The translations under genes and the position numbers were made by a program. DNA of 64,000 nt, taken from assembly GCA_013180625.2 (NCBI GenBank), contig SNVD02003163.1, forward strand, positions 104,272 to 168,271. The letters are read 5' to 3'. Under the pieces are notes generated by a model that was given only the letters and a program-made list of their open reading frames with translations, searched no databases and was not told the DNA's origin. Position 1 is the first letter of the stretch. Every line of letters begins with the position of its first letter. Below are positions 19,447 through 48,874 of this stretch, in pieces. This stretch comes from Boswellia sacra. Taxonomy: Eukaryota; Streptophyta; Magnoliopsida; Sapindales; Burseraceae.

Positions 19447-20932
19447 TGATGAACACTTAAATATGTATGCTTAATAAGAGTTTAATTCATCATATTGCAT
19501 TTATAGTGTCATTAAATTCCTCAACTTAAGTATATTTGTAGTCTTTGCATCTTAGAATTAACTTTCTCTTAATTTCTGTTTTGATGTAGGTTCGGTAAAA
19601 TAGGCATAACTTTCTATTTATAGATTAGAATGGTGCAAATTTTAATGTTTTGAAAGCTGATTAAATTATCTACAAGATTGTGTTTCACAAGAATAATCAA
19701 ATTCGGGTTCTTAGTGGACCAAAAATGGGCTGGAAGTGAACCCATCTGCAGATTCGGTCCAGCCTGACTATGCCTTAGTATTTTGATCATATCTCTCAAA
19801 ATACGTATCTAAATCATATAAATCAATATGTTCTAGAAAGCTGAGACAATTATCTACAACTTTCATGAAGACATGTGATCAAAATGCTCAATAATTCGGT
19901 GCCGAAATTGATGGTCAAAATCGGTGCACCTAATAATCCCAATTGTCAAAGATTTGTGCACCTAATATTTGACAATTGTTCCTTTATAATTTGACAAGTT
20001 TGCCCCTGAATGTATCTATAAATAGAGGTGCCTTGTGACTATTAGGACATCTTGGCCTTGGCTGGAACATATTGGCCTTGGCTAGGATCTTGTATTGTGT
20101 TTTTCTCTTGTGTGTTTATGCTATTAATAAATATTCTTTCTCTTGTAATTTGTTTTCTTTCTTCTATAATGTCTTTCTAATTTCTCTTTCGCTAAAGTGA
20201 AAGGATGAAACCCTTGATATGAGAATAAGGATCTTCCAACCATTAGATATGTGCTTAATAATTATAATCTTTTTTTGTTTATATGATTTATATTTATTTT
20301 CTTAATCAATCTTGACACCACTCGTAAAGTGGAGGTCTTGATCCATTGTCGATAATCCTTGGCACATCAAATGCTTGGATCCTTTTTAGACGTCATATGG
20401 TTCTTCCTTACCGACACAATTCTAGTTGGGAACCTTGATTTGTTGTAGACATATGGTGTTTGGCACATTGGATGCTTGAACCCATTTACAAGAAGTGGTA
20501 TAAATATTGATAACAAAACAAATATAATTCATATAACTAAAATGGGTTATGTATCCTTATTTGAAATATCAAAGGCGGATCCCCTAACCTTAGCTTTCAT
20601 TGTCATTGTGTTAATTTATCTTACTTTTGCACTTTAATTATTCTTATTTATTGTTTATGAAATTATTCTTTATTTGCCATGGTGGGTTTTACCACCTATT
20701 TCTATGATCAGTTTTACAACCTTTTGTTCTTATTTTACTTTTGAATGGTCGGTAGTACCGCCTACAATCTTTACTTCTATTTGTTAATATCTTCTTGATT
20801 AATCATATCATATCTGCTTAGCTTATAATTTGTAGCGCTAAAATCCCCTTCCTCATGGATCGACCCCGGTCTCACCAGTTTATTACTTCGACACTTCTAT
20901 ATTTGGGAGACAATCCTTTTTTGGATGTGTCA
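19447..20932 (+). repeat. 5' LTR of element A
   Basis: Begins TGATGAACACTTAAATATG and ends GGATGTGTCA, the same termini as the LTRs of element B. It is 1486 bp. The last ~110 bases contain the characteristic GTGGATCGACCCC-like block (here ATGGATCGACCCCGG near 20855). The short ORFs in it recur in the LTRs of B and are not genes. Confidence 0.88.
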
Positions 20933-20938
20933 AGTTTT

Positions 20939-20956
20939 TGGCACCATTGTCGGGGA
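20939..20956 (+). other. Primer-binding site of element A
   Basis: TGGCACCATTGTCGGGGA lies six bases after the LTR end. It matches the tRNA-Asp-complementary site typical of Athila elements (TGGCGCCGTTGCCGGGGA) with three substitutions. The cleaner version is in element B. Confidence 0.8.
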
Positions 20957-21121
20957 AGGTAAAATTTGGCGTATAAAATTGTAAGTATTTTCTTTTCTCA
21001 TTTTTATTTTTATTTTTCTTGCATGTGTTCATCTTTTCTTTCTTTTTGCATTCGTTGGTAGAATTATTTGTAGCCACTCATCTTCTTTGAAAAACATGCT
21101 CATACCCAACTAAGAACATTA

Positions 21122-22737
21122 ATGGATTACATAAGAACTTATGCACAATCATGCATAGTCTTCCCTCATGATGCAAAATATTTCAACCATGAACCGGATT
21201 TCATTCAATTCTTAGCCCACTTTTATGGCCTAGATGTTGAAAACCTATATTTGCACTTATGAGAATTTGAAGAGTTTTTTAACTCCTAAAGTGACCCAAA
21301 TTGTAGCATAAACACCATTGGATTAAAGCTTTTTCCTTTTTCTCTAAAAGATAAAGCTAAAACATGGCTACAAACTCTTAGGTCAAGATCCATTAGCTCA
21401 TGGGATGAAATGCAACAACAATTTCTTAAAGAATTCTTTCCTTCTTATAGAACAAATTCTCTCAAAAGGCAAATTAACAATTTCACTCAAAAATAAGGAG
21501 AGACCTCTTACCAATGTTTGGATAGATATAAAGCATTGCTTAATACTTTTTCTCATCATGGTTTGAAAACATGGGAACTAGTTTTAATTTTCTATGAAGG
21601 TCTTACACATCAAGCCAGGCAAATGGTAGAATTAATGTGTGATGGACAATTTGAAGATAAAGAACCTGATGAAGCCATAGATTTCCTAGACTTACTAGCA
21701 AAAAATGCCCAAAATTGGAATAATGTTGACACCTATGAGGTGCCAAGAACATCTAGTAGAGGCATTTATAACTTTAGGAAAAATCATGATCTTCATGTCA
21801 AATTTGCATCCTTAGCTAAAAGAATCGAGGATTTAGAAATGTGGTCACACTTGTAATTCTAGTGATCATCCAACGGATGATTGCCCAAATGTGCCTACCT
21901 TTAGGAAAAGTCTCCATGAAAAAACCAATGTTTTAAACACTTTCCAAAGGTCAAATCCTAATCCTTGCTCATAAAAGTTTGGATGGAAAAATCACTTGAA
22001 GTTTGATTGGAGGAATAATAATCATGCACAATCTCACCAACCTCCCTTTCAATCACATCAAAATTTTCAAAATTCTCATGATCATGCATATGCTCCTCCT
22101 CCTAAGAATGACGTTGAAGAGATATTGCATTCATTCATTGCAAGGCAACAGACTTTCAATAATCAAACTACTCAAACATTAGCAAATTTGTTAGACACTC
22201 TTGCAAAATTTGCATCCACATTTAGCATCCAAGAGAAAAGGTGAGTTTCCATCTCAACTCGAGCCAAACCTCATCAATCCACATCTAAGTAATCTAAGTG
22301 GCCAACATCTATATGAAGATTCGGTAAGTGCTCTTCATGATGGTAAGGTTGATCAAGAACATGTCCTTAACCCTCATGAGAAAGATGATGAATCAATCCT
22401 AAAGGGTAAGGAAGAGGTTAATAAACTTATACCTAACAAGGAAAAGACCGAATCCTCACTTATGCACTCATGTCATCATGCAAAGGAATTTAACCAAAAT
22501 TTTGACATTAATGAATTTTTCGAGCATGATGAAAATGAGGAAGCTAATAGAATTAAAACTAATGTGGAAGACTATATCCAAAATGAGAATTTTTCAACTC
22601 CTTCAGAAATCGGGTTAACTAGTTCATTTGAACCAAGTATGCAACTAGTGCCCATTGCTTCTAAAGAATTCTCATTACTTGATTTTGTACAGGTGAAGGA
22701 GATTAAGAGTTGGGAACCATGTTTCGAAAAAAGGTAG
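21122..22737 (+). pseudogene. Athila-like gag remnant of element A
   Basis: Starts at the ATG at 21122. It reads 'FIQFLAHFYGLDVENLYLH', then 'LKDKAKTWLQTLRSRSISS' and 'SYQCLDRYKALLNTFSHHG', the Retrotrans_gag pattern (PF03732). Stops interrupt it at about 21260 (TGA), 21289 and 21496 (TAA in FTQK-stop-GETS). Frame shifts follow near 21856 and 22240. The zinc-knuckle stretch clear in element B is only partly readable here near 21850. Gag would package element RNA in cytoplasmic particles; this copy cannot make a full protein. Confidence 0.85.
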
Positions 22738-23099
22738 GAAGAAACATCCACACTCAAGAATGCATGCCTCAAGGACAAACAAACTCAGCCAGTGGTAATC
22801 TCTTTCATTCTTACAAATAAAGGAAAAAGAGAGGTACCACCTCAATGGCATATTTTTTATCGTGGTAAATTACTTTCGAAGAGATTCTTATTTTGCCCTT
22901 TTAATCAAATTTTATTTGTGCCATATTTTCATTTTCATTTTTATTTTTATTCTTGATTTTTGCTATCATTTCTAGTTTGTTTATATTTTATTTTATGTGC
23001 TTTTATTTTAGTTATGTGTTTATCTTTTATTTCCCGGTCAAGTGGCGGATACGGTACTCTATGGCTTTTAAAGTCGGTTTTTCAGTTCCCTAAAAACTA
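22738..23099. other. Element A internal non-coding stretch
   Basis: AT-rich sequence between the gag remnant and the spacer ORF, colinear with about 45300-45740 of element B. I recognise no domain. Element A would normally carry pol here if it were autonomous. Confidence 0.6.
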
Positions 23100-23420
23100 T
23101 TGCTCACCTTGCATCCATTTTCTTTTCTTCTCTCTCATTTTCTTCACATTGATATCATTCTCTCAAATTTGAATAAACATTTTCCCTCTCTTCCACAAAA
23201 TGATTTGCTTAAAATTTACAAAGCTCACGCAGCAAGACTAAGGATGTTGATGTGCAAGGGCATTCCTGCTGGTTTAGGATGGTTAATTGAATCCAAGGTT
23301 CGATTTTCTTATGAATTTTCAGACAATCTTGTTTCTCACATGCTAGGCTTGGGAAAAAGCTCTTACGCCAAAAAGCGAAGAGCTAAAAGGTTACAAGTTT
23401 GTCACAAATGTGCACGATGA
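23100..23420 (+). other. Conserved spacer ORF between gag and LOG, element A
   Basis: A 106-residue frame is shared with element B (45000-45293, minus strand). Landmarks are 'LSNLNKHFPSLPQNDLLKIY', 'RFSYEFSDNLVSHMLG' and the basic 'SSYAKKRRAKRLQVC'. Similarity to B continues to about 23700 in broken frames. I do not recognise the family. It could be a remnant of a retroelement gene or a second captured host fragment. The coding-like conservation between two diverged copies is the only reason to list it. Confidence 0.45.
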
Positions 23421-23954
23421 ACTTGTAACCAATATTGCCGCTCTTTAGGATATTTGTCTAACAATCGAGAGGATAAATTATAGTTCATTAAGAATGGACT
23501 AAGAAGGGAGTCTTTGGATGATATCCGAGTGACTCTTGAGACGCATTCTTGTGGACTTGTGCAACGTGAAATCTTGAAATTGTGGACATAATTTCGGGAT
23601 GAGTAGGAACGTTATAGTCTTGGCAATCTAATTCAAAACGACGCTATTTGTCAATTTATAAGAAAACTGGATGGGAAGCATATCCCCAACTCATAGAAGG
23701 TGTTTAAATCGTTTTTGGACGTAAAACCAAAGGAAGATATGAGCCACAGTCACAACTATCTGTACATATGCATGCGTGTCATTATTTTTGAATTTTAAAT
23801 TCCTTATAGCTGTCCTTTTTGAATTTGTATCTTTTGTTTGACTTATGGTGTCTTATTTCATCATCTTCTTTTTTTTGAATTTCTATGCATTATTGTCAGA
23901 TTTTTCAACAAGCAACCTAGCTACCTATCTAGATGTCATCATTAGCATATCTTT

Positions 23955-24019: not shown

Positions 24020-24618
24020 ATGGAGAAACTTCAAAACATTGAATCTAAAGGATATGTGTATTCTATGGATCTCGACCAGGCAAAAGTTGAAAAGTTTGTA
24101 AAAGTAGCAAATTATCTTGGTAGGTTATTGGTTGAAAGAAAGATTAATGTGGTTTATGGGGGAGGTAGCCTTGGGTTAATGGGTTGTGTGTCAACAACTG
24201 CACATGTAAGAGATAGTCAAGTTTTAGGAGTTATTCCTAAAGCTTTGGCTGTAGAAAACATCGTTGGAAAAACGGTTGGGAAGGAGTTACAGGTTTTCTC
24301 TATGTATGAATGCATGGCATATATGCTTATCAATTTAGATGCCTTTATTGCTTTACCAGGTGGCTTTGGTACCCTTGAAGAAATTTTTCAAATTGATCTT
24401 GGGCCCAACTGAATCTCCATCAAAAACCCATAGGTTTGTTGAATGTTAAAAATTTCTTTGATCCTTTGATACATTTTATTGATGCAATTGTGGAACAAAA
24501 TTTTATTTCTCATTCGACGAGAAAGATCTTTGTTTTTGCCACTACTGCTGGTGAGTTACTTGATAAATTACAAGCAGTTGAGTATGAACCTGAACCAGCT
24601 ATTACTCAAATTAATTAG
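24020..24618 (+). pseudogene. Captured LOG cytokinin-activating enzyme, element A (broken)
   Basis: LOG enzymes remove ribose 5'-phosphate from cytokinin nucleotides in the cytosol, releasing active free bases. The frame shows 'NVVYGGGSLGLMG', then 'DAFIALPGGFGTLEEIF', the PGGxGTxxE signature of the family, intact here. Further on is 'LLNVKNFFDPLIHFIDAIVEQNFIS' in another frame. At about 24394-24400 a one-base loss relative to B shifts the frame and ends it at 24412. At the N terminus a one-base loss near 24026 and a one-base gain near 24080 scramble residues 3-20, so the family's 'CVFCGS' block is read out of frame as 'GYVYSMD'. No introns are present, although plant LOG genes normally have several. 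That fits capture of a spliced transcript. Total length, about 200 codons, is close to the family norm. Confidence 0.88.
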
Positions 24619-25746
24619 TTAAGAGGATAAAATAAAAAGTGCAAATTGGATCTGAATCTTTGTTTGTAATTTTCTTTGTCTTTTATTTTATTTGTAGCAT
24701 TTTATTTTATGAGTCTTTCAGGTCATCTCTCTTGAATAATAGAAGCTTCAGGTAATGTCTCATATACTTTATCGCTTTACATTTAAACATTGAGGACAAT
24801 GTTTCATTTGGTTAGGGGGGAAGGATAATGGACATAAGTGTGTCTTAAATTTTCTTTTTCTTGCAAAAAAAAAAAAAAAAGAAGCAAGTTAGTAATTAGA
24901 TTCAGAGTGCAGTGTAAGGAGTTCAAATCCTCTTGAGACGTATTCTGGGTCAAGAATGGCAGAGTAGGGAGGGCTAATTTGAACTCTTGAAACCCATTCT
25001 AATCAATTTGTCATTTTCTTTTGATTTTGCACTTTTGAAAACTCATTTTAGCTAAATTGATATTATTTAGTTTTGATTTTTGAATTTTATAGCAAGGAGG
25101 TCTCATTCATTTCACTTTGAATTATTCAAATCTATAAACTCTCACAACCTTATCATTTAATAAACTGTGTGCTCATTAAGCAAGTATTCACAAACTTTTC
25201 TTCATACACACACAATCTTGATGCATGATTGTGCATGGTGAAATGAAATGTTGTAATATTTGAGTTATTTTGTTTTGTTTAGGATAACAACAAAAGGAAG
25301 GGGAAAGTTCAAAAAAAAAAGAGAAAAAAGTGAAAGCAAAAAAAAAAAGAAAAAAAAGAAGAGCAATTGTGGATAAGTTTGGTCTCGTAGCCTTCTCAAT
25401 TCGAGCAATTAAGCCTGTGGGGTGCCTCAACACCTGATACCTTAAGACCAACTGGTTTGGGAGCTATTGACCCAAAGCTCATTACATGGATTAAGGAGAA
25501 AGCTTAATGGGATTGAACATTGCACTATCCACAAGTGTCTAAGTAAAAATAAAGCATCGACAACTGGAGTCGTAAGCTCGTAGGGGTGTCTTAACACCTA
25601 ATGCCCTAAGACCAACTGGTCTAGGAGTCATTAGCCTAAGGCTTGCTACATGGCTTAAAGATGCATTCTTTCAAAAAAAAGAAAGGGAAAAAAAATAAAA
25701 ATAAATAAATAAATAATAAATAAATGCCCAATGCCTAAGGTTGTTA
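24619..25746. other. 3' internal tail of element A
   Basis: Non-coding and colinear with 43779-42700 of element B in reverse. It holds a purine-rich TTAGGGGGGAAGGATAATGG near 24813, A-rich runs near 24865 and 25310-25365, and two related blocks with AGACCAACTGG near 25446 and 25610. Colinearity with B ends after CCTAAGGTTGTTA at 25746. The real 3' polypurine tract and 3' LTR are not present. Confidence 0.7.
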
Positions 25747-29986: not shown

Positions 29987-31243
29987 CACTACAAGAAAAG
30001 TTGCTATTTACTATGCCGATAAAAAGGACAAGATATGTTGGAGGATTGAATCAGGCAATGCACTATGTGGTCTATGCAGGTTTCATCTTTGTTTTCTGTT
30101 TTGGCTGATGTTAGCTTTTATTAAAGTGAAGCTATGTGATTGACGAAATTTCTGCAAATGAAATTATCAATTGCATGCTTGGTTGCTAGCAATTTCTTGT
30201 TATGAGTTTTTATTTGGCAACCGTGTCTGTATTTGACCATTTGATTCACTTTTTAAGGTTGGGTTTAGCTCTATTGCTATAATCAAGGCAATTGATTCTC
30301 TCCTCAAACAGAATTCAAATTACTTTTATGGGAAAGGTAAGTGAAAGTTCTTTGCTTTAATAATGACCTTGTGTTTTGTGGCTTCAAATGTTAGTTTATT
30401 TATTAGTTTGTTCATAAGTCTCGTATGATTTTAGAAGCTTATATATTCTAGAAGTTTGTGAAGTAAATGACTGACTTGTTATGAATTGTGGTTGTGATAG
30501 TCCTATAATGACCATTTGTGAATTCCATGTCAAGAATTTTGGACACCCTACTTCCTTCATACATGACCAGACATATGCACCAGGAAATGAAATGCTCACT
30601 CCATAAATGGAAATGTACCAGATTTAATTAATCTGGTATAATGACCATTTGCCCGCTTAAATGATAGAAATTAGCAATACATCACTGGAGAACGAATGGT
30701 TTCTCCAATATGTGCACTTCTTAATCAATTTTTCTGATTGAATCTAGCTATAACACATCTATATTATTCCATCAACGTTGATATCACTTTTGACAGATTT
30801 AATTAATCTAAAAACTATAAATCTAGCTTGCTAGCTGCAATGCTCATAGCATTGGTCTCTTATGGCGATTAGAATAGAGATTAAGGGTGATTATTTTCTA
30901 CAATATCTGTCTTGAGAAATGTGAAAAACCTGTTTAGTTGATCAAGCATTTTCATTTCTACCATATTTAGTAATTTATATGAACCAGTCACCCATCGGGC
31001 CCCCAATAAATTATGAGTCGCATTTCAAAGCTTTTTCCTTAAACAAGTTTAATACATACAACTTCCCTATACGCAAGAGTCAGTCTCTCTTATAATTGTT
31101 TCTGTATTTTTCTTTCCTTAGTGTTGGAATAATTAGTTCAAAATATGCTAAATGCTAAACTCTAAAATTTGCAATATATAGGAAGGTCTATTCCCAGAAA
31201 ATTTCTACTGTTGTAGAGGCTTCACAGTTTTACAATTTAGGGT
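29987..31243. other. Uncharacterised stretch starting with a CACTA-type terminus
   Basis: CACTACAAGAAAAGTTGC at 29987 is a perfect CACTA-type terminal sequence in plus orientation. No matching right end was found in the window. The rest, to the target duplication of the solo LTR at 31244, is AT-rich with no recognisable gene. It is either the true left end of the transposase-bearing CACTA, or a separate truncated element inside one that starts at 25747. Confidence 0.4.
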
Positions 31244-31248
31244 AGTTG

Positions 31249-33156: not shown

Positions 33157-33161
33157 AGTTG

Positions 33162-34944: not shown

Positions 34945-35925
34945 TTGCCTGACACATCCAAAAAAGGATTGTCTCCCAAGTATAGGAGTGTCAAAGTAAT
35001 AAACCTGGTGAGACCGGGGTCGATCCACGAGGAAGAGGATTTTAGCGCTATAAATTATAAGCTAAGCAAATACGATACGATGATTCAAAGATATGACAAG
35101 ATAATACCAACAATAGATGATAATAATTAAAATATGCAAGTAAAAGGAATTAACACAATAATAATGAGAGCTAAGGTTTAGGGGATCCGCCCTTGATATT
35201 TCGAATAAGGATAAACAACCCATTTTAGTTATATGAATTATATTTGCATTATTACCAATATTTATATCACTACTTGTAAATGGGTTCAAGCATCCAATGT
35301 ACCAATCTCCATATGTCGTCAACAAATCAAGGTTCCTAACTAGATTTGTATCGGTAAGAAAAAACCATACGACATCTACAAAGGATCCAAGCATTTGATG
35401 TGCCAAGAATTGTCTACAATGGATCAAGACCTCCACTTTACGAGTGGTGTCAAGATTGATTAAGAAAGTAAATATAAATCATATAAAATAAACAATATAA
35501 GATTATGATAATTAAGCACATATTAAGGGTTAGAGAATCCTTACTCTCATATCAAGGGTTTCACCCTTTCACCTTAGCAAGAGAGAATTTAGAAAGACAT
35601 TATAAGAGAAAGAACACAAATTACAAGAAAAAGGAAATTCATTAATAACTTTTTTTGAAAAAATTACTATTCACATAAAAAGAAAAAAGATAGTACAATA
35701 TACGAGGGGCATACCCCAAGAAGAGTATTTAGTACTCACAAGTCCAAAAGGAAATAACAAAGCCCAAAGGCTTCAAACGAATAAACAGAATAAAAGCCAA
35801 AGGCCCCAGACAAAACGATTGCGCATAGGCCCAAAACCAACCACAACATAGCCAAGATCACTCAAACAGTAAAAACAAAAGGGCGTATTAGCCCAATCTA
35901 GCAAAATAAAGTCCAAGAAAACAAA

Positions 35926-38900
35926 CTAATGATGAAGACCACATATGGCACGAGGTTGAGGAGTGATCACATACTTGGCCTCCAAGGTTAGAAGCCGAGA
36001 GCGAACCAAGGTAAAAATCTCATCAATCACCTGACGACAAGTCTGACGACGCTGCTGATACACACGATCATTCCCTCATACTATAGAAAATAAACTGTGA
36101 CAGAAAAGACCAAACGTGCAAGGATATACTCAAAATTCTTTCTGCCCTGAAGATGAAGAGAAGCCCAATGAAGTAGAGTGAGCCAATCAGAAGATGGCCA
36201 AACAATGAGAGTCTTAGCTGTAATCTCCTCCCATACAGAAGATGAGAAAGGACATCTAAAGAAAAGATGTTCATGAGTCTCATTTGCTGAGGCACAGAGA
36301 ACACAGCCCGAAGAGGATAACATGCCATGACGTTGTAATCGATCCATAGTACGAAGACGACCCAAGGAGGCAAGCCAAAGAATAAAAGAGTGTCTTGGAA
36401 TATGGCCAGGGAACCAAAGAAGATGATGAAATGAATTCACGGCTCGTCTACTCCGTAAAAACTCCCATGCTGAGGCAATGGAGAAAACTCCAGAGGTGTG
36501 GCCCTTCCAAACAATACGATCAGGAGTCCCCATCATAGGCCGGAAGCTGATAGAGTCCCAAATTCGTCCAAGGGCCGATCCACCATCAGGAAAAGTCCAA
36601 TCCCCATCCTGAATAATAGCGGAGACCTTGGCATCTGAGGGAAGACCTGTAGATGAAAGATTCCTGAAAGAAAACAAATCACAAAGACGCCCCTGTGGCA
36701 ACCAGTAATCCTGCCAAAGTGAGGTGTCACGACCATCTCCAATACAAGAGACAAATTTACCCCTACACCAATCTCGACTGTGCAAAATCTTCCCCCAAGA
36801 CCAGGAGGCTCCAGAAGTAACTCGAACCTGCCAAAACGAGCGGCCCCGAAGGAGTACTTTATGAATCCAAGAAGACCATGTGGAGGACTTATCAGAAAGA
36901 AGTCTCCAAACATGCTTTAGAATAGCGGCCTGATTCCATTCCTTCACTCGCTTAATTCCCAATCCTCCTTCCTTTAACGGAGAGCAAACCGAATCCCAAG
37001 CTACTTTGACCCCAGAACGAGACAAAGAGGTCCTTCTCCACAGAAAGCAGCCAGAATACCCTCAATCTTCCGCACCACAGTTACCGGCAATATGAATATG
37101 GATGACCAATAGACCTGTATGGAAAAAAGTACCGACTTGATTAACTGAAGACGGCCAGCATAAGTCAACATAGCAGATGTCCATAACCTAACCCTCAATA
37201 GAATCCGTTCTATCAATGGAGTACAATCTGAAGGGCGCAATCTGGTACTAATCAGAGGCACTCCCAAATATCTAACTGGCAGACTCCCCACCTGAAAACC
37301 CAAGATGGCCTGCAACACAGTTCGGTCCTCATCATTGACTCCAGAAAAGAATACATGACTCTTGGCAGAATTCGTCACTAAACCAGAGAGCTCTGCAAAC
37401 TCCTGCAAAGCATTACAAACTACACTAACAGAGCCCGTATCTGCCCTACAAAAAACCATCAGATCATCTGCAAAATAAAGATGAGTGAGAGAGACCTGCT
37501 GACATCTCCAATGATATCGGAAACTAGGCCTCTGAGAAGCCTCCCGAAGAATACCATTCAAACCCTCCATTACCAACACTAAAAGGTATGGTGACAACGG
37601 ATCACCCTGTCGAACTCCTCTAGAGGTGGGAAAAAAACCATGAAACTCTCCATTTAAAGCAATAGAGAAATGTGCAGAAGACATGCATGTCGCGATCCAT
37701 CGAACCATACACTCTGGAATACCGATCGTCCTTAACCCCAAAAGAATGAAATCCCAACTAACAGTATCAAAAGCTTTGCGAATATCCACCTTTAAAGCAC
37801 ACCGGGGAGGCGAGCACCCAAGATGGTAATTATGCATGAGCTCTTGAGTCAATAGGATGGCATCAGAGATCCTCTGACCTGGGACAAAAGCAGACTGTGA
37901 ACTCCCAATTACATCAGGTAAAACTAGTTTAAACCTATTCACAATCACTTTGGAGATGCACTTGTAGAGTACATTACAGTAAGAGATTGGTCGAAAGTCA
38001 CTCATAGTCCTCGGAGTCTCAACCTTGGGGACCAAGGCAACCCTAGTTGCATTAACACACTTCGGCATCCGACAAGTCGCAAAGAAGTAGCACACAACAG
38101 CCTTAAACTCGACACTAATAATGTCCCAAGCCCTCTTAAAGAACAGAGAGGTGTACCCATCCGGCCCTGGAGCTTTATCATCGGGAATCGAGAATAAAGC
38201 TAACCTGATCTCATCATCAGTAATAGGGCACACCAAAGAAGGCAGCATCTCCTCAAAAACTCTTCCAGAGAAAAACCAAGAAGTATCTACAATAGAAGGT
38301 CGAGAAGGAACTGTAAGCAATTTCTGAAAATACCTAACAACCAGATAACCTAAGTCACCTCGATCTGTAACGATAGTACCACCCTCATCCTCAAGCTGAT
38401 GAATCTGATTTCTGACCTGTCTATGGATCAGAGACTTGTGAAAGAACTTGGTATTCTGATCCCCCAAAGAGAGCCATTGGATCCTTGACCGTTGCCGAAA
38501 GAAAGCCTCATCGTCCCTGCAAAACTGAGAATAGTGCTTAGCAAAATCCCTCTCAGCCAAAATACAATCTGGGGAATAAGGGCTCTCATCCAAAGCAGCC
38601 TGAGCTGTGGCCCACTGAGCCCTAGCCTCAATGACCCTACCAGAGATGTGACTAGAAGCCTTGGCATGCAAAGTCTTAAACTCACATTTCAACAAACCCA
38701 ATTTCTGTGTTACTCGAAACATAGGATCCCCATCTATAGGCATAGACCATACTCTCTGAACAATCTCCAAGAAATCCTCTCGGTCAGCCCAAAAGTTCAA
38801 AAATTTAAAAGGACTGGAGGTCTGCCTACCTTAATCTCCAAACCTGATGACCAAAGCACTGTGATCAGAAGCATCTCGTGGAAGAACTTCAGAAGTTGTG

Positions 38901-39540
38901 TTTGGCCAAGTCAAGAACCATAAAGCACTACCAAAACTCCAATCAAGAGTTCTAAGAATAGTACCGTCTCCCTACTGCCATTATGCCAAGTATACCGAAG
39001 CTCAAAAGATGGTACCCTGATCAACGCTGCATCATGAACACACTGTCCAAAATCATCCATGTAACCACGCCAAGCCTGATCCCCACCAACTCTATCCGAA
39101 GAGCATAAAATCGCATTGAAATCACCCAATGCCAACCAAGGTAAGTCACCAAAAACCATGGACTGAGCTCTGATAAAGTCCCACAACTATCGACGAACAC
39201 CCAGATCATTAGAACCATAAACAAAAATCAGACCAAAAGAAACCCCATCTAATAATCTGGTAGCTCGACAAACGATCCACTGTAGAGAAAGCTGTAGACC
39301 ACTCAAACTGTACAAAGTAGGATCCCAACACACCAAAACTCTACAAGCAATTAACTCAGTGACATTGGATAAGAACTTCCAAGAAGGACAAATATCCGAA
39401 ACAACTGAAGCAAAGCGTTGCTAATTAACCTTAGTCTCCAAGAGACCAATCAAACCCAAAGAATACTTAGAAATCCAGTTTTTAACTGCTTGCTGCGTAG
39501 AGAAGCCATTAAGGCCTCTAATATTCCAACTTCTTATCAT
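35926..39540 (-). pseudogene. LINE ORF2: endonuclease and reverse transcriptase (broken)
   Basis: The start 'MIRSWNIRGLNG' at 39540 opens an APE-type endonuclease domain with 'GLLETKV' and 'WLALGDFNAIL'. A frameshift lies near 38900. RT then reads openly from 38800 to about 37040: 'KAPGPDGYTSLFF', 'DFRPISYCNVLYK', 'LKVDIRKAFDTVSWDFI', 'RGVRQGDPLSPYLL' and the catalytic 'LYFADDLMVF' (FADD at about 37463-37474). A second shift near 37040 leads into the C-terminal zf-RVT region with 'CVLCASANETHEHLFFRCPF' (about 36300-36230). A TAG near 36080 stands where related ORFs have Trp. The last codons ending at 35926 give about 1205 codons, normal for plant L1. The enzyme nicks target DNA and primes reverse transcription there; this copy cannot make it whole. 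Confidence 0.93.
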
Positions 39541-39578
39541 AGGAAGCTGGAAAATCTCAGAACTCAATAAAGAAATCA

Positions 39579-40823
39579 TCAGGGGCGCATGCCCCCTTTA
39601 CCCCCATTTCCACCCTTCTTATTATGACCTTTTTTAGCCTTACCAGTAGGTGGTCAACCGTCTGAAGCCGTCTCAGTGGAAGCAGGAGGATCCGGAGCAA
39701 CAAACTTTTCTGAGTGAGCAATCCCTGAAGGATCAGAATCAACTATAGGGATAGAAGAGCCCTTCAAAATCTGATCCTGGTGATCCTTAATAGGAGATAG
39801 TGAATCAGAATCAGAAGCAGACTCAGAACTCGAGCCAGTGGCAGTAAGTTTACTTTTGTCTTGCAGAACTGGAGTTACATCTGCAATAATAGCCAGATCC
39901 TGACTAGTCTCAATATGGACTGCTGCTGCAATAGAAGGGTCATCCGTCTTCCTATTGTCTCGCAAGACAAGGGTTGTAGTAGTATTTGGTGCCTCGGCCT
40001 CTCTAGAAGAATAATGCACGACAGGCACAGGACAGGTATGGCCAAATAAACAACACTTGGAGCAGCGTTTTGGTTTCCATTCATATTCCACTCTGATCTT
40101 GATAGGTTCAGAAGATAGTTTACACCGGAGCTCAAAGTCCTGCGCAGGAGAATGGTCCGCATCTATCTCAACACAAACCCTGGCATAGGATAACCGAGTG
40201 TGCTCATAAGTCATCCTGTCACATGATAATGGTCGACCAACCATACTAGAAATAGCACTGAGTGCTTTAGCTTACCATAATGAAAATGGTAGTTCATGCA
40301 ATCGAACCCAGACTGGGATCCTGGTAATCCTACTCTGATCAAAAGAAAAATGAGGATTCCATTATTGCAGAATGATGTGCTTCCCACCAAACATCCAAGG
40401 CCCTCTTTCTAAAATATCATGAACCTCCTCTACCGTTCTAAATCTGAATATCAAGAAACGCGTCCCAGTAGAGCGGACATCCTCCAAACCACTAGACTTC
40501 CATGCACGCATAGCAATAGAACTTGCAGCATGGAAAGGCATAGTATACCCCGAAAAAAATCTCACAATACAGCGCAACCAATCAGCCCTCGCATCATCAA
40601 CTAAATCATCAGGAAGCTCAAGAATCGAACCCGGAACCTTCCAGGCTATTGAGTCAAGATGAAATCTAGTGTTGGCCTCAGTAACCCGAACCCTGTCGGC
40701 CCAAGAGCCAGGTGGTTTAGGTAAAGATTGTGTGTGGGTGTTGTTTCGAGCAGATGGACGTGTTTGAGTGTCACGAGGTAGACGTTGGAGTTGGTTAAAT
40801 TTGGTAGGGGCGAGGGTGGCCAT
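39579..40823 (-). pseudogene. LINE ORF1: DUF4283 / zinc-knuckle RNA-binding protein (broken by stops)
   Basis: One continuous frame of about 414 codons starts at 'MATLAPTKF' (40823). The DUF4283 part includes 'FFSGYTMPFHAASSIAMRAW' and 'ILERGPWMFGGKHIIL'. A 'CSKCCLFGHTC' segment near 40055 matches a degenerate CCHC knuckle of the zf-CCHC_4 type. A Ser/Asp-rich stretch follows, then a Gly/Lys-rich tail read past a TGA near 39652. In-frame stops also occur near 40360 and 40275, but no frameshift is seen. ORF1 proteins of plant L1 bind element RNA. The upstream Met at 40898 is less likely because the MATL start fits the family pattern. Confidence 0.88.
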
Positions 40824-42441
40824 GGTGGGAATGGTGTGGTACAAACTAGGAAATGTGTGGTGAAAATAGTGGAAAAAACTCCAACCCGTAGCAATCAACC
40901 CAAATCAACTCCAAAAATCCAACCAGCAATCAAAGCAACCAAATGCACGCAAGATAGTAAATTCACAATAATTTTAAAGTGAAATTGCAATAGAAGGAGT
41001 GCATACCAGTCACCAGATCGAGCATGAATGTACTGATAAATAGTTCTGGTTGGATGAATAGTAAACAGTGGCTTGCACGTTTGACGTCGCTCCTTGGATT
41101 TTGATGATCTATAAGGAATCTGAGGGGCAGGCAAAAAGCAAAAGTGCGTGGAATAGCCCGAGGAGCAAACTAGTCAGGTTGGTGAACAATATCCGCCGGA
41201 GGAACAGTAACAGCCGTCGTGAATAGTACTTATCGAAAATTGAATCGCAATTACAGGGAGATTTACTGGGAATCTGACGATACTACTGAAGAAAAATCTG
41301 ACCAGCGTCCTTTGATCTACAACTCAGTGGCAGAGGTGTCGACCCACTCGCCGTTTGTCAAAAAAAGCGGTAATGGATAGTAATATTAAAGGCCGTGGAT
41401 GGAGGTGATAGTAATTGAAATAGGTGTCGGTGATGAAAGAAAAATTATAGATCGGGTTGAGACGATGGCGATAGTAGTGGCGGTGACAATTCACTCGCCC
41501 TTCCACGGTGAATGAATAGTAAATTTTGATTGTGTTTTCTATAACTTTGAACGTTTTCTGTTCAGAATCTGGAGAGGCTCAAGAAGGAATGTTTGTTTAG
41601 GATACTTCGATCTACAATATATGTAAATCTTATAGCCAAACTCGCAAAACCGACGGAGTAAACAGTAACTCCGACGATGTCATTTCTCTCCCACTATCCC
41701 ACCTTACGCAGGAACATCCTGACATATACACACTTAGACTTACAGTGGACCACCAAATTCATTAATAACATTAACACACAAGAGAGAAAACACAATAACA
41801 AGAGATACACAATACAAGATCCTAGCTAAGGCCAAGATGCCCAATGGGTCACAAGGCACCTCTATTTATAGATACATTTAGGGGTAAACTTGTCAAATTA
41901 CAAGGGAATAATTGTCAAATATTATATGCACCAACTTTGACAATTAAAGTAATTAGGTGAACCGATTTTGACCACCCATTTTGACCTTAAATTATTGAGA
42001 ATTTTAATCACATGTCTTCATAAAAGTCGTAGATATTTCTCTCAGCTTTCTAGAACATCTTGATTCATATAATTTGGATACGTATTCTGAGAGATATGGT
42101 CATAATACTGAGGCATGGTCAGCCTGGACCAAAACTACAGATGGATTCACTTCAAGCCCATTTTTGGTCTACTAAGAGCCCGAAGTTGATGAACCTTGTG
42201 AAATACAATCTTGTAGATAATTTAATAAGCTTTCCAAAACATTAATATTTTAACCATTCCGATCTATAAATAGAGAGTTATGCCTATTTTACCAAACCTA
42301 TAACAAAACCAAAATTAAGAGAAAGTTAATTCCAAAGATGCAAAGACTACAAATATGCTTAAGTTGAGGAATTTAATGATACTATTAATGCAATATGATG
42401 AACTAAACTCTTATTAAACATGCATATTTAAGTGTTCATCA

Positions 42442-42455
42442 CACCCCCCAACTAG
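42442..42455 (-). other. Polypurine tract of element B
   Basis: Minus strand reads AGTTGGGGGGTG directly before the 3' LTR start TGATGAAC, the expected place for plus-strand priming. Confidence 0.75.
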
Positions 42456-43779
42456 CTTATTGCTAGTCCCTAGCAATTAAAGCGTTATTATTTAGAAGTG
42501 ATTTATAGAATTTTACATCTAAGGTGGTCATTATTGCACTCTCCTTGATTTTATCCAAATAAACAAAATCTCAACTGATTTTTTTTAAATGACTCATGTA
42601 CCCTTCAGTCAAGATATCAACAAACCTTCTTTTTGTGCTCAGTTGACAGATGACTATGGGGCTTATTAGAAAGAGAGTATTTGTTAAGGCTAACAACCTT
42701 AGGTAGGGGGCATTCATTCATTTTATATATATGTTTTTTTTTTTGAAAGAATGTATCTTTAACCCATGTAGCGAGCCTTAGGCTAATGACTCCCAGACCA
42801 GTTGGCCTTAGGGCATTAGGTGTTAAGACACCCTTACGAGCTTAACGACTTGGGTTGTCGATGCTTTATTTTTGCTTAGAAACTTGTGGATAGTGCAATG
42901 TTCAATCCCATTAAGCTTTCTCCTTAATCCAGTTGGTCTTATGGTATTAGGTGTTGAGGCACTCCTCGGGCTTAATTGCTCGAATTAAGGAGGCTACGAG
43001 ACCAAACTTATCCACAATTGCTTTCTCTTCTTTTTTTTCACCTTTTTTTTCTTTTTTTTTTTTGCTTTCATTTTTCATTTTTTTTCTTTTTTAACTTCCC
43101 CCTTCCTTTCGTTGTTATTCTAAACAAAACAAAAGAACTCAAATATTGCAACATTTCATTTTGCCACCCACAATCATGTATCAAGATATGTGTGTGTGTG
43201 AAGAAAGGTTCATGAATACTTGCTTAATGAGTACATAAGCACACTGTTTATTAAATGATAAGGTTGTGAGAGTTCATAGATTTGAATAATTCAAAGTGAA
43301 ATGAATAAGACCTCCTTGTTATAAAATTCAAAAATCAAAACTAAATAATATCAAGTTAGTTAAAATAAGTCTTCAGAAATGCAAAAATAAAATGATAAAT
43401 TGGTTAGAATGGGTTTCAAGAGTTCAAACTGGTCCTCCTTACTTTGCCATTCCTGACCCAGAATGCGTCTCAAGAGGATTTGAACTCCTTACACCGCACT
43501 CTGAATCTAATTACTAACTCGCTTTTTTTTTTTATAAGAAAAAGAAAATTCAAGACACGCTTATGTCTACTATCCTTCCCCTCCAACCAAATGAAACATT
43601 GTCCTCAATGTTTAAATGTAGAGAGATAAAGTATAGGAGATATTACCTGAAACTTCTGTTATTTAAAAGAGATGACCTGAAAGACTCATAAAATAAAATG
43701 CTAAAAATAAAATAAGGACAAGAAAAAATTACAAAAGAAGATTCAGATCCAATTTGCACTTTTTGTTTTGCCCTCCTGA
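42456..43779. other. 3' internal tail of element B
   Basis: Non-coding. Minus-strand order matches 24619-25746 of element A as far as about 42700, then continues 260 bp that A lacks. It contains two blocks around AACTGG (near 42800 and 42930), a poly-T/CT run at 43020-43090, and an inner purine-rich stretch (TTGGAGGGGAAGG on the minus strand near 43585). Confidence 0.7.
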
Positions 43780-44379
43780 CTAATTAGATTGAGTGATGAC
43801 GAGGTCAAGTTCATACTCGACTACTTGTAACTTGTCAAGTAGTTCACTAGCAGTAATGGCAGAAACAACGATCTTTCTCGTCAAATGAGGGATAAAATTT
43901 TGTTCCACAGCTGCATCAACAAAACTTATTAAAGGATCAAAAAAATTGTTAACATTCAACAAACCTATGGGTTTTTGATAAAGATTCAGTTGGGCCCAAG
44001 AGGCAATTTAAAAAATTTCTTCAAGAATACCAAAGCCACCTGGTAAAGCAATAAAGGCATCTGAATTAATGAGCATATATGCTATGCGTTCATGCATAGA
44101 GGAGACCTGTAACTCCGTCCCAACCGTTCTTCCAACGATGCTTTCTACGGCCAAAGCTTTAAGAATAACTCCTAAAACTTGACTATCTCTTACATGTGCA
44201 GCTGTTGACACACAACCCATTAACCCGAGGCTACCTCCCCCATAAACCACATGAATCTTTCTTTCAGCCAGTAGCCTACCAAGATAATTTGCTACTTCTA
44301 CAAACTCCTTACTTTTACCCGGTCGAGATCCGCAGAATACACATATCCTTTGGATTCCACGTTTTGAAGTTCCTTCCAT
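43780..44379 (-). pseudogene. Captured LOG cytokinin-activating enzyme, element B (one nonsense codon)
   Basis: One 200-codon frame is interrupted only by a TAA at 44008-44010, where element A has CAA. It has 'RICVFCGSRPGKS' near residues 10-22, 'HVVYGGGSLGLMGCVS', 'DSQVLGVI', and 'DAFIALPGGFGILEE'. After the stop come 'ASWAQLNLYQKPIGLLNV' and 'RKIVVSAITASELLDKL'. These cover the full LOG domain in family order. The PGGxGTxxE signature has Ile for Thr, a change at a conserved active-site position that is likely damaging in itself. No intron is present. The sequence differs from the commonest LOG clade (SWAQLN, GCVSTAAH), suggesting a divergent subfamily as donor. It is not a functional gene as it stands, although the ancestor of both copies probably was. 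Confidence 0.9.
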
Positions 44380-44445
44380 ATCTATGCAACTCTCTAATTA
44401 TGCATGAAGAAGAGAACAAGACATGTGGTATTTATGGAGTGTAAA
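44380..44445 (-). promoter_or_regulatory. Conserved TATA-type leader of LOG, element B
   Basis: Minus strand reads CACTCCATAAATACCACATG about 55 bases before the LOG ATG, then CTTGTTCTCTTCTTCA, matching element A nearly base for base. The conservation suggests it was carried in the family's common ancestor. Confidence 0.45.
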
Positions 44446-44999
44446 AAGGTCTGCTAATAATGACATCTATCTAGGTAGCTCGGTTGTTTGGTGAAAAAGT
44501 TGACAATAATGCATAAAAATTCAAAAAAAAAAGATGATGAAATAAGACACTATAAGTCAAACAAAAGATACAAATTCAAAAATGACAGCTATGAGACATT
44601 AAAATTAAAAAATGATGGCACGCATGCATATGTACAGGTAGTTGTAATTGTGGCTCACATCTTCCTCTGGTTTTACGTCTAGAAACGGCTTAAACACCTT
44701 CTATGAGTTGGTGATATGCTTCTCATCCAGTTTTTTATAAACTGGCAAACAGGGTCGTTTTGAGTCACATTCCCAAGACTATAGCGTTCCTACTCATCTC
44801 GAAATTGTGTCCATAAGTTAAAAATTTCATGCTGCACAAGTCCACAAGAATGCGTCTCAAGAGTCACTTGGATATCATCCAAAGACTCCTTACTCAGTCC
44901 ATTCTTGATGAACTGTGGTTTATCCTCTCGATTATTAGACAAATATCCCAATGAGCGGCAACGCTGGTTACAAGTCTATCTTGCATATTTGGGACAAAC

Positions 45000-45293
45000 T
45001 TATAACCTTTTCGCTCTTCGCTTTTTTGCGTAAGAGCTTTTTCCCATACCTGGCATGTGAGAAACAAGATTATCTGAAAATTCATAAGAAAATCGAACAT
45101 TGGCTTCAATTAACCATCTTACTTCAACAGGCATACCCTTACGCATCAACATCCTTAGTCTTTCTGCGCGAGCTTTGTAAATTTTAAGCAAATCATTTGG
45201 AGGAAGAGAGGGAAAATGTTTGTACAGATTTGAGAGAATGGTGTCCATGTGAAAATGCGAGAAAAGAAAAGAAAATGAATGCAAGGTAAGCAA
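45000..45293 (-). other. Conserved spacer ORF between gag and LOG, element B
   Basis: A 97-residue frame homologous to 23100-23420. Landmarks are 'LSNLYKHFPSLPPNDLLKIY', 'RFSYEFSDNLVSHMPG' and 'SSYAKKRRAKRL'. It ends at a TAA where A has CAA, and homology continues beyond that to about 44700 in a broken frame ('LSKESLDDIQVTLETHSCGL' region). The family is not recognised and no catalytic motif is seen. It has the same position and orientation relative to gag and LOG as in A. Confidence 0.45.
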
Positions 45294-45745
45294 CAGTTTT
45301 TAGGGAACTGAAAAATCAACTTTGAAAGTCATAGAGTACCGTATCCGCCACTTGATCGGGAAACAAAATACAAACACACAAATAAAATAAAAGCACATAA
45401 AATAGAATAAGAACAAACTAGAAATGATGGCAAAAATTAAGAATAAAAATGAAAATATGGCACAAACAGATAAAATTTGATTAGTAGGGAAAAAAGACAA
45501 AAAGAGGAATCTCTTCGAAAGTTCTTTACCACGGTCAAAAATATGTCATTGAGGTGGTACCTCTCTTTTTCCTTTGTTTACGAAAATGGAAGAGATTACC
45601 ACTGATTGAGTTTGTTTGTCCTTGAGGTATGCATTCTTGAGTGTGGATGTTTCTTCCTACCTTTTTTCAAAACACAGCTCCTAACTCTTGATCTCTTTCT
45701 CTTGTATAAAATCAAGTAATGAGAATTCTTTAGAAGCAATGGGCA

Positions 45746-47293
45746 CTAGTTGCATCGCATACTTGGTTCAAATGAATTGGTTAACCCAATTTCTGAAGGA
45801 CTTGAAAAATTCTCATTTTGGATATAGTCTTCCATATTAGTTTTAGTCCTATTAGCTTCCTCATTTTCATCATGCCTGAAAAATTCATTAATGTCAAAAT
45901 ATTGGTTAAGTTCCTTTGCATGATAACATAAGGGCAAAAATGAGTATTCGATCTCTTCCTTTTTAGGTGTAGGTTTATTAACCTCTTCCTTATCCTTTGA
46001 GATTGATTCATCATCATTCTCATAACGGTTAAAAATATGTTCTTTATCAACCTTACCATCGTGAAGAGTACTGACCGAATCTTCGTCTAGATGTTGGCCC
46101 CTTGGACTACTCACATGTGGATTGATAAAGTTTGGCTCTAGTTGAGATGGAAACTCACCTTTCTCATGAGTATTAAGTACAAATGCAAGTATTTCAAGAG
46201 CATCATTCAAGTTTGTCATAGTTTGAGCAACTTGACTGTTAAAAGCCTCTTGCTTTGCAATGAATGAATCCAATGTTTCTTCAAGATCCTTATAAGATGC
46301 ATGATCATGAGATTTTTGAAAATTTTGATATGATTGAAAGGGAGGTTGGTAAGATTGTGCATGATTATCATTCCTCCAATAAAAATTCAAGTGATTTTTC
46401 CATCCAAAACTTTGTAAGTAAGTATTAGGATTTGACCTTTGAAAATTGTTTAAAACATTGGTTTGCTTATGGAGACTTTTTCTAAAGGTAGGCACCTTTG
46501 GGCAATCATCCGTTGGATGATCACTAGAATTACAAGTGTGACAGACAATTTCTTGCATAGACCACATTTCTAAATCCTCGACTTTTCTAGCTAGGAATGT
46601 AAATTTAGCATGAAGATCATGATTCTCCCTAAAGTTATAAATGCCTCTACTAGATGTTCTTAGTACCTCATAGGTACTAACATTGTTCCAATTTTGGGTA
46701 TTTTTTGCTAGTAAGTCTAGGTAATCCATGGCTTCATCAAGGTCTTTGTTTTCAAATTGTCCATTACACATTAAATCTACCATGTGCCTAGCTTGATGTG
46801 TTAGACCTTCATAGAAAATTAAAACTAATCTCTATGTTTCCAAACCATGGTGAGGACAAGTATTAAGTAATGCTTTATACCTATCCCAACATTGGTAAAA
46901 GGTCTCTCCTTGTTTTTGAGTGAAATTGATGATTTGCCTTTTGAGAGAATTTGTTCTATAGGGAGGAAAGAATTTTTTAAGAAATTATTGTTGCATTTCA
47001 TCCTATGAGCTAATGGATCTTGACCTAAGATTTTGTAACCATGTTTTAGCTTTATCTTTAAAAAAAAAAGAAAAAAGTTTTAATCTAAAGATGTTTATGC
47101 TACAATTTAAGTCACTATATGTGTTACAAAACTCTTCGAATTCTCTCAAGTGCAAATATGGGTTTTCAACATCTAGGCCATGAAAGTGGGGTAAGAATTG
47201 AGTGAAATTCGATTCATGGTCAAAGTATATTGCATCATGAGAGAAGACTATGCATGATTGTGCACAAGTTTTTCTAAGATTTATGGAGCCCAT
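45746..47293 (-). pseudogene. Athila-like gag, element B (three nonsense codons)
   Basis: A continuous 515-codon frame from Met at 47293. It shows 'FTQFLPHFHGLDVENPYLHL', 'FKDKAKTWLQNLRSRSISS', 'CWDRYKALLNTCPHHGL' and the CCHC zinc knuckle 'CHTCNSSDHPTDDC' near 46520. These place it with Retrotrans_gag of the Athila group. In-frame stops are at 47003-47005 (TAG; A has TGG), about 46987 (TAA; A has CAA) and about 46832 (TAG; A has TGG). Near the 3' end a 5-base insertion (GATGC) ends the frame early relative to A. Gag would form particles and package RNA. No protease follows it, unlike an autonomous element. Confidence 0.88.
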
Positions 47294-47514
47294 TAATGTT
47301 CTTGGTTAGGTATGAGCATGGGTTTTTTTTTTTTAAGAGAAGATGAGTGACTCCTAACAATTCTACCAATTGATGCAAAGAGAAAGAAAAGATAAACAAA
47401 TGCAAGAAAAAATAAAAATAGAAATGGGGAGAGAAGAGATGAACATATGCAAGAAAAATAAAAATAGAAATGGGAAAAGAAAATACTTACAATTTTGGAC
47501 ACCAAATTTTACCT

Positions 47515-47532
47515 TCCCCGGCAACGACGCCA
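47515..47532 (-). other. Primer-binding site of element B
   Basis: Minus strand TGGCGTCGTTGCCGGGGA lies six bases after the 5' LTR end. It differs by one base from the tRNA-Asp-complementary site used by Athila elements, which is the best lineage marker here besides gag. Confidence 0.88.
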
Positions 47533-47538
47533 AAAACT

Positions 47539-48874
47539 TAACACATCCGAAAAAGGATTTCTCCCACGTATAGGAGTGTCGAAGTAATAAACCCAGTGAG
47601 ACCGGGGTCGATCCACGAGGAAGGGGATTTTAGCACTACAAATTATAAGCTAAGCAAATACGATATGATGATTCAAAGATATGACAAGATAATACCAGCA
47701 ATAGATTAGAATAATTAAAATATGCAAGTAAAAGGAATTAACACAATAATAATGAGAGCTAAGGTTTAGGGGATCCGCCCTTGATATTTCGAATAAGGAT
47801 AAACAACCCATTTTAGTTATATGAATTATATTTGCTTTGTTACCAATATTTATACCACTACTTGTAAATGGGTTCAAGCATACAATGTGCCAATCTCCAT
47901 ATGTCGACAACAAATCAAGGTTCCTAACTAGATTCGTGTCGGTAAGAAAAAACCATACGACATCTAAAAAGGATCCAAGCATTTGATGTACCAAGAATTG
48001 TCTACAATGGATCAAGACCTCCACTTTACGAATGGTGTCAAGATTGATTAAGAAAGTAAATATGAATCATATAAAATAAACAACATAAGATTATGATAAT
48101 TAAGCACATATTAAGGGTTAGAGAATCCTTACTCTCATATCAAGGGTTTCACCCTTTCACCTTAGCAAGAGAGAATTTAGAAAGACATTATAAGAGAAAG
48201 AACACAAATTACAAGAAAAAGGAAATTCATTAATAACATTAACACACAAGAGAGAAAACACAATAACAAGGGATACACAATACAAGATCCCAGCTAAGGC
48301 CAAGATGCCCAATGGGTCACAAGGCACCTCTATTTATAGATACATTCAGGGGTAAACTTGTCAAATTATAAGGGAATAATTGTCAAATATTATATGCACC
48401 AACTTTGACAATTGAAGTAATTAGGTGAATTAAGAATTTTAATCACATGTCTTCATGAAAGTCGTAGATATTTCTCTCAGCTTTCTAGAACATCTTGATT
48501 CATACGATTTGGATACGTATTCTGAGAGATATGATCATAATATTGAGGCATGGTCAGGCTGGGTCAAAACTGCAGATGGATTCACTTCAAGCCCATTTTT
48601 GGTCCACTAAGAGCCCGAATTTGATGAAGCTTGTGAAATACAATCTTGTAGATAATTTAATCAGCTTTCCAAATCATTAATATTTGCACCATTCTAATAT
48701 ATAAATAGAGAGTTATGCCTATTTTACCAAACCTGTAACAAAACCAAAATTAAGATAGTTAATTCCAAAGATGCAAAGACTACAAATATGCTTAAATTGA
48801 GGAATTTAATGACACTATTAATGCAATATGATGAACTAAACTCTTATTAAACATACATATTTAAGTGTTCATCA
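47539..48874 (-). repeat. 5' LTR of element B
   Basis: Minus strand starts TGATGAACACTTAAATATG (48874) and ends GGATGTGTTA (47539), 1336 bp. It shows the uninterrupted LINE target sequence near 48222. The flanking TTGCC at 48875-48879 is the target duplication. Confidence 0.93.

Follow-up and report, generated by a model that had tools for sequence, protein, structure and literature searches.

Athila-like retroelements of Boswellia sacra, with and without pol, carry a viral NABP-like gene and a LOG gene ahead of the 3' long terminal repeat

How does a gene of the cytokinin-activating LOG family come to lie inside retroelements in which no pol gene can be read? The question is raised by a 64,000-nucleotide stretch of the Boswellia sacra genome (assembly GCA_013180625.2, contig SNVD02003163.1, positions 104,272 to 168,271; hereafter the window), in which two Ty3/gypsy-type elements of opposite orientation, A (19447-~25746, plus strand) and B (48874-34950, minus strand), each hold a LOG open reading frame (ORF). 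An initial annotation, made from the letters alone, had read them as members of a family that carries LOG where pol should be. Our answer is built on gene order, abundance, placement between long terminal repeats (LTRs), LOG clade, tail conservation, low ratios of nonsynonymous to synonymous substitution (dN/dS) and the mixing of element kinds, all computed here. We consider it probable that A and B are dead, pol-less, Athila-like elements, and that their family carries a two-gene cassette for host manipulation in the position of env: a gene resembling viral nucleic-acid-binding proteins (NABPs), followed by LOG.

Element B is a complete insertion with LTRs of the TG...CA type and a 5-bp target-site duplication (TSD), GGCAA, on both sides (34945-34949 and 48875-48879). 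Along the minus strand its 5' LTR (47539-48874, delimited by LTR alignment and its TG...CA ends) is followed by a primer-binding site (PBS; 47516-47532) that matches TGGCGCCGTTGCCGGGG, which we take to be the complement of the 3' end of tRNA-Asp, at 16/17 positions. Then come gag (45744-47273, with an open stretch of 361 residues at 45746-46831), a broken NABP-like ORF (44632-45254; tblastn E 2e-74 with protein P0225 and 9e-61 with P0222) and a LOG ORF including a tail (43729-44379; PF03641 E 7e-15), interrupted in frame by a stop 123 codons in and by another one ahead of the tail. A long A/T-rich tail leads from LOG to the polypurine tract (PPT; 42442-42458), and the same or nearly the same motif precedes the 3' LTR in 6/6 other copies. 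The 3' LTR is split by a 6.1-kb long interspersed nuclear element (LINE; RVT_1; 35650-41754) with its own 15-bp duplication; compared with the 5' LTR separately, the parts before (41755-42441) and after the LINE (34950-35634) lie at Kimura two-parameter distances (K2P) of 0.048 and 0.038. Element A is decayed and has the same internal order on the plus strand: a 5' LTR (19447-20932, TG...CA, 85% identical to that of B), a PBS (20939-20955, 14/17 to the same sequence), a broken gag remnant (21123-22737; 89-92% identical to B in pieces, with tblastn matches to Populus gag-type proteins), a broken NABP-like ORF (23148-23759; P0222 E 7e-71, P0225 E 1e-73), a LOG ORF with its C-terminal tail (24020-24669; PF03641 E 3e-14), open for 130 codons and then broken by frameshifts and stops, and a 3' non-coding tail (24670-25746). 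No 3' LTR was found for element A, which ends near 25746. The stretch 18727-19446 reads in translation like the end of a copia polyprotein and gave no match in a Pfam scan; since it directly adjoins the 5' LTR of A, the element may have landed in it. A and B can be aligned over about 5 kb, with an identity of about 85%. The order of LTR, PBS, gag, ORF and LOG on opposite strands is as first described, and so is the missing pol: no protease, reverse transcriptase, RNase H or integrase piece was matched in either element. The two are not halves of one segmental duplication, which is ruled out by their opposite strands, their different flanks and the TSD that B has of its own.

The 638.6-Mb assembly that contains the window was searched for further copies. 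With the LOG of element A as query, all of the best 40 places scored (one being A itself) match at no less than 91% identity over at least 589 of 599 bases; this is a lower bound, taken as the best of 3836 unconfirmed first-look candidates. A host-type LOG protein gave 13,187 first-look candidates, and the best 150 scored, again a lower bound, all match, 137 of them without an internal stop. Twenty of the 40 places, picked non-randomly for upstream room, were mapped. Six of these (L013, L016, L017, L020, L024, L025) have a full pol set, in the order LTR, gag, protease (PROT), reverse transcriptase (RT), RNase H (RH), integrase (INT), NABP, LOG; L010 shows this layout without INT, and L021 is cut and starts within part of RT. 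Seven copies (L009, L011, L014, L015, L023, L027, L028) are pol-less and read LTR, gag, NABP, LOG, and only parts were seen in the other five (L012, L018, L019, L022, L026). Hence LOG does not take the place of pol: pol-bearing relatives carry it too, behind integrase and the NABP ORF. Paired LTRs flank LOG in 6/6 copies fetched to the 3' side (three pol-plus, three pol-less), which bears out the proposal of a family that amplified while carrying LOG. The LTR pairs of these six copies differ by a K2P of 0.008-0.042, and at a substitution rate of 1.3e-8 per site per year the insertions are about 0.3-1.6 million years old. Perfect 5-bp TSDs frame four of the six, as they do B; one has 4/5 and one has none. 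The PBS is of tRNA-Asp type, the type of Athila elements, and matches at 17/17 positions in six of eight copies and at 16/17 in two. The PROT-RT-RH-INT order of the pol-bearing copies is common to Ty3/gypsy elements in general, and Pfam matched RVT_1, protease and integrase zinc domains in their pol proteins. Athila ORF-1 (PF03078) was not among the family proteins scanned with Pfam; it is not obligatory, being present in 16% of Athila elements according to PMC6317226. A second LOG subfamily (L029-L040) ends in another form of the LOG tail. A motif scan placed NABP upstream of LOG in 5 of its 12 loci, which include truncated ones. A TATA-type leader ahead of LOG had been described for the elements; it is present in the subfamily of the window (three other copies) and missing from two second-subfamily LOG copies aligned, and we reject it as a feature of the whole family. 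LOG and NABP frames are disrupted in many copies, among them A and B.

The ORF between gag and LOG, called an unknown spacer in the initial annotation, can be identified through its relatives as NABP-like. It was reached by way of an Acer yangbiense gene model, P0135, found through LOG protein searches: its first 140 residues match the ORF of the window and the rest is LOG. With this first part as query we recovered 65 proteins, many of them labelled PF01623 or PF05515 (the carlavirus nucleic-acid-binding families Carla_C4 and Viral_NABP, respectively). The LOG Pfam domain is also found in 17 of the 65 (Acer, Citrus, Rhamnella, Orobanche, Diplodiscus), and protease, RT, RNase H or integrase domains in six (including Citrus, Populus and Orobanche); the Citrus gene model P0277 has integrase, NABP and a LOG end, in that order. 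This order across species is read from database gene models and not from their DNA. Together with the two LOG subfamilies of the Boswellia genome, which stand at a dS of about 1.2, it agrees with the earlier claim that the capture is older than the split of A and B. In open copies the NABP is about 182-186 residues long, with a core motif KKRRAKRL followed mostly by C-x2-C-x4-C-x3-C. Among 32 single-domain relatives, PF05515 matched 20 and PF01623 matched 21 at E 1e-3. Two open copies of the Boswellia genome, L038 (PF05515 E 1.7e-10 over 110 residues) and L014 (1.6e-7), exceed the curated cut-offs of both families. The match might nevertheless be convergent, with a basic zinc-finger protein of the retroelement's own having come to resemble viral NABPs. 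The likeness is confined to some 30-115 residues of basic and Cys-containing sequence, at 1e-3 each Pfam family leaves 11-12 of the 32 members unmatched, and among the viral contigs searched with P0002 and A1 no relative was found. We regard convergence as unlikely, given that two viral NABP families are matched beyond their curated cut-offs, even if PF05515 and PF01623 may be related and hence not fully independent support. The p12 protein of chrysanthemum virus B is reported to activate transcription in the nucleus and to suppress silencing in the cytoplasm (PMC7588395); by analogy the retroelement NABP might counteract silencing, a prospect that we put a little below even. NABP-LOG gene models are also present in the parasitic plant Orobanche (P0267, P0276, P0282), and the LOGs of P0267 and P0276 sit on very long branches in the LOG tree, which could reflect rapid evolution, decay or horizontal transfer between host and parasite.

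That the second gene belongs to the LOG family is apparent from two open copies (PF03641 E 4e-39 and 5e-39), from the PGGxGTxxE motif in 85 of 100 rows and from the catalytic Arg in 91 of 93 parsed rows. For the broken window pieces only, TIGR00730 (cut-off 96.35) scored 106.9 bits in B and 82.8 in A, and the equivalog NF058542 (cut-off 300) 78 and 64.7 bits. Both window segments singled out at the start are LOG by PF03641; their ends at 24618 and 43780 were misplaced, and the frame extends to 24669 in A and 43729 in B. The extension is a basic tail with an LxLxL end, lying behind a stop that both elements share. Such a tail, basic and ending in LxLxLxL, occurs in 69 of 105 non-host rows (195-265 residues) against 0 of 27 host rows; the 105 include four host LOGs filed there by mistake and several truncated gene models, and the host rows were picked by core motif. 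In a tree of 69 LOGs, 56 retro-type rows, for only part of which the element context is known, stand on one side of a branch (95/93) and 12 host LOGs (mostly LOG7, plus Arabidopsis LOG3 and LOG8) with one bacterial outgroup on the other. A single capture is the simplest reading, given the host LOG subfamilies sampled. Capture from a host LOG, as first proposed, is plausible; the clade does stand apart from the 12 sampled host LOGs, and no donor was found in the same genome, where the best 150 places scored with a LOG7 protein (52-54% identity) and the best 150 scored with a 75-residue middle piece (55-59%) were all read as retro-LOG copies. Among the matches listed, the closest relatives that bear a name are proteins labelled 'hypothetical' and spread over many chromosomes in Reevesia and Diplodiscus, followed further out by Xanthoceras, Populus and Paulownia.

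The Arg-Lys pair of LOG binds substrate. Of 93 retro-LOGs parsed, 15 have the Lys of host LOGs next to the catalytic Arg and 76 have I, L or M in its place. One may ask whether the retro-LOG has kept the fold for another job, cleaving other nucleotides, or immune signal nucleotides, rather than mainly cytokinin precursors. Besides the replaced Lys, the separate clade with its own tail would fit this, as would a match to PF18306 (SLOG cluster 4), scored on retro-LOGs alone. Most rows retain the PGGxGT motif and the Arg, however, the best solved-structure matches are Arabidopsis LOG-family proteins, and no direct evidence points to another substrate, so that a change of job seems distinctly improbable. 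We lean towards the retro-LOG being catalytically active. The tail recalls the LxLxL form of EAR motifs that recruit TOPLESS (PMC12349606), and may tentatively be read as such a motif. Two observations stand beside these. In A and B the stop before the tail falls at the same codon (24616-24618 and 43780-43782) despite 15% divergence; either both descend from a lineage without the tail, or a transition mutation has recurred. Two Populus proteins named LOGL10, P0150 and P0199, fall inside the retroelement LOG clade and have its tail; annotation may have mistaken transposon genes for host genes in these cases.

Are NABP and LOG working parts of the element or freight? The LOGs of A and B give a dN/dS of 0.45, which mixes decay after insertion with earlier selection, and we therefore used open copies, that is, full-length frames among the best-scoring copies, with five duplicate loci dropped and Nei-Gojobori estimates taken over non-independent pairs. 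For LOG, dN/dS is 0.22 in the first subfamily (12 copies, 66 pairs) and 0.11 in the second (5 copies, 10 pairs), so the check on captured copies that had been proposed at the outset returned low values. Between the subfamilies the ratio is 0.19 after correction, at a near-saturated dS of about 1.2. Without correction, the within-subfamily values are 0.23 (codon bootstrap 0.13-0.39) and 0.12 (0.07-0.22). Pol-less copies give 0.14 (6 pairs) and pol-plus copies 0.34 (3 pairs, few changes). For NABP the ratios are 0.15 (3 pairs) and 0.19 (6 pairs), and 0.20 between subfamilies (12 pairs); RT as a yardstick gives 0.115 (6 pairs). In the first subfamily the 11 codons of the tail show 0 nonsynonymous against 47 synonymous pairwise differences (66 pairs), and the 15 codons ahead of it give 0.95. 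Low dN/dS of this kind is in keeping with the two genes being functional components of the element and not freight. If LOG and NABP were neutral passengers carried along after capture, their copies would be similar merely through youth. Transduced genes do occur in plant LTR elements (PMC7264820), and both genes are broken in many copies, including A and B; set against LOG ratios of 0.11-0.22 within subfamilies and 0.19 or, uncorrected, 0.33 between them, and against a NABP-LOG order retained in gene models of several plant genera, we find a neutral origin of the pattern very unlikely.

The two kinds of element, pol-less and pol-plus, differ in gag and share the cassette. In the gag tree nine pol-less rows (A and B included) and seven pol-plus rows are split at 100% support (SH-like approximate likelihood ratio test); gags are 73-75% identical between the kinds, and a comparison of two pairs showed a stretch of about 540-570 bp ahead of NABP that the kinds do not share. 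Across the kinds, the LTRs of these two pairs are 94% identical and their blocks from NABP through LOG to the 3' end 92-94%, with A and B more distant from them at 85-90%. That A and B are ordinary elements which each lost pol recently and independently, as might be thought from the full pol in 6/20 copies and none in A or B, is extremely unlikely in view of the same pol-less layout in 7/20 copies, the single clade formed by the pol-less gags, the gag divergence and the unshared stretch. A NABP-LOG tree (nine pol-less and eight pol-plus rows) mixes the kinds, with seven changes, and 471 of 500 label shuffles were as low. Repeated exchange of the NABP-LOG block by recombination would be the simplest reading, and such exchange is expected if the RNAs of the two kinds are packaged and copied together. 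Several pol-less copies have long open gag stretches (PF03732 E 7e-21 in the one scanned), and presumably they take pol in trans from pol-bearing partners. The pol-less copies keep NABP and LOG, which suggests that these two, unlike pol, would act in cis or in the expressing cell.

Taken as a whole, we favor the following view of the family. Pol-bearing members are built as LTR-gag-PROT-RT-RH-INT-NABP-LOG-3' LTR, and the subfamily of A and B as LTR-gag-NABP-LOG-3' LTR, with a gag of its own and a pol presumably borrowed in trans. In both, NABP and LOG occupy the position held in other Athila elements by env-like ORFs. The NABP, a putative zinc-finger protein of carlavirus type, would bind nucleic acid and dampen silencing, alter transcription or do both. 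The LOG-type phosphoribohydrolase would set free active cytokinin, or some other base, and would do so partly in the nucleus, where its basic LxLxLxL tail might recruit TOPLESS-type corepressors. Together they could favor expression or spread of the element by relieving silencing and keeping cells dividing; a gain from host growth or meristem activity is a tentative suggestion. More speculative still, and unlikely to hold as a whole, is the picture of a plant lineage resembling endogenous retroviruses that swapped its env position for an anti-silencing gene of RNA-virus type plus a nuclear, TOPLESS-recruiting hormone enzyme, that spread this unit through rosids and lamiids, and whose satellites shed pol and cannot shed the cassette, which would then act in cis or cell by cell.

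Several points weigh against the cassette interpretation. The chain from NABP and LOG to effects on the host, like the supply of pol in trans, is deduced from sequence. On the NABP side, a 68-residue piece of the element B ORF matched no Pfam family when scanned alone, so that the NABP identity in the window comes through relatives; a curated cut-off of PF05515 or PF01623 was passed by only five of ten such proteins scanned, the Pfam match is limited to the basic and Cys-containing region, and the structure model is poor (predicted local distance difference test score of 61) and too weak for a fold search. With regard to LOG, cytokinin activity cannot be assumed because of the replaced Lys, the tree bootstrap had not settled, and early-branching Xanthoceras and Acer copies have no LxLxL end. 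The NABP-LOG tree is weakly resolved, and the mixing of kinds may partly reflect lack of signal. The selection estimates draw on full-length frames and on pairs that are not independent; the uncorrected between-subfamily LOG ratio is 0.33 (0.25-0.42) against 0.19 corrected, and in the second subfamily the tail gives 0.13 against 0 in the preceding codons, so that no added constraint on the tail is seen there. The best explanation is slightly less certain because the between-subfamily ratio hangs on the correction and the tail contrast appears in one subfamily.

Around the two elements, the window holds a DUF247 gene (PF03140; 11959-13491) and a second one that is cut short (PF03140; 17291-17938), both by Pfam. 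DUF247 genes are of interest in self-incompatibility. Near them lie duplicated blocks (1-1675 and 15024-16695; 8335-8634 and 16847-17146). A Ty1/copia element spans 51825-59837. Its LTRs are about 1.8 kb long, its domains include RVT_2 and copia gag, and an inverted LTR related to these is found at 31243-33159. CACTA-type transposase pieces (Transpos_assoc, Transposase_21; 49616-51187) stand immediately beyond the 5' end of element B.

The family bears on what benefit plant retroelements draw from the extra ORFs behind pol. Two such ORFs receive a likely biochemical class and low dN/dS in a very large family, and many copies with an open LOG frame make their function directly testable. The family also links a retroelement lineage to a protein family of plant RNA viruses and to cytokinin. 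For annotators it carries a warning, as some plant gene models named LOGL10 or 'hypothetical' are probably transposon genes.

How, then, does the family compare with known systems? Steinbauerova et al. reportedly described two Athila-like elements with similarity to LOGL4 in 2011. A YgdH/LOG domain has been noted in Ty3/gypsy consensus elements of Citrus sinensis and C. clementina, and with a looser filter in elements of Populus trichocarpa, in an RT-based screen (PMC9289625, which cites Steinbauerova et al.). Capture of LOG by Ty3/gypsy elements, offered as new in the initial annotation, is therefore already known. The likeness lies in the LOG-family domain inside a Ty3/gypsy element, and the NABP partner, the tail, the clade, the selection test and the pol-less subfamily are, judged by the passages of PMC9289625 consulted, found only in the present analysis. 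For the NABP-LOG pair in retroelements we found no report in the open-access literature searched, judged mostly from listings; two papers there name the NABP Pfam families, and by their titles neither concerns retroelements. New on this basis are the pair itself, arranged alike in plants that range from Citrus and Acer through to Orobanche; a LOG clade that stands apart from the host LOGs sampled, together with its tail; dN/dS ratios of only about 0.1-0.3 for NABP as well as LOG; and elements without pol in which gag, NABP and LOG have been retained, with apparent swapping of the NABP-LOG block between them and their pol-bearing partners. Pol-less copies resemble TR-GAGs, with two genes in addition: TR-GAGs are non-autonomous LTR elements with LTRs, PBS, PPT and an open gag and without pol, all of which the pol-less copies share, and they differ from the present elements, which keep two further genes and apparently recombine with a pol-bearing partner. 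With the Athila lineage the family shares the PBS type. It also has in common with that lineage the gag-PROT-RT-RH-INT order and extra ORFs between pol and the 3' LTR (PMC6317226, PMC7264820); these are NABP and LOG here and ORF-1 or env-like proteins there. Carlavirus NABPs such as p12 (PMC7588395) are alike in matching Viral_NABP/Carla_C4, whereas the present protein has about 182-186 residues in open copies, sits in a retroelement and resembles them at the level of family profiles. A parallel for the capture of an enzyme as such comes from Phalaenopsis, where Gypsy elements have kept an AlkB-like RNA demethylase as an extra ORF over many copies; that enzyme is a different one, and according to PMC9289625 it was found in two Phalaenopsis species only and has had its activity shown in vitro.

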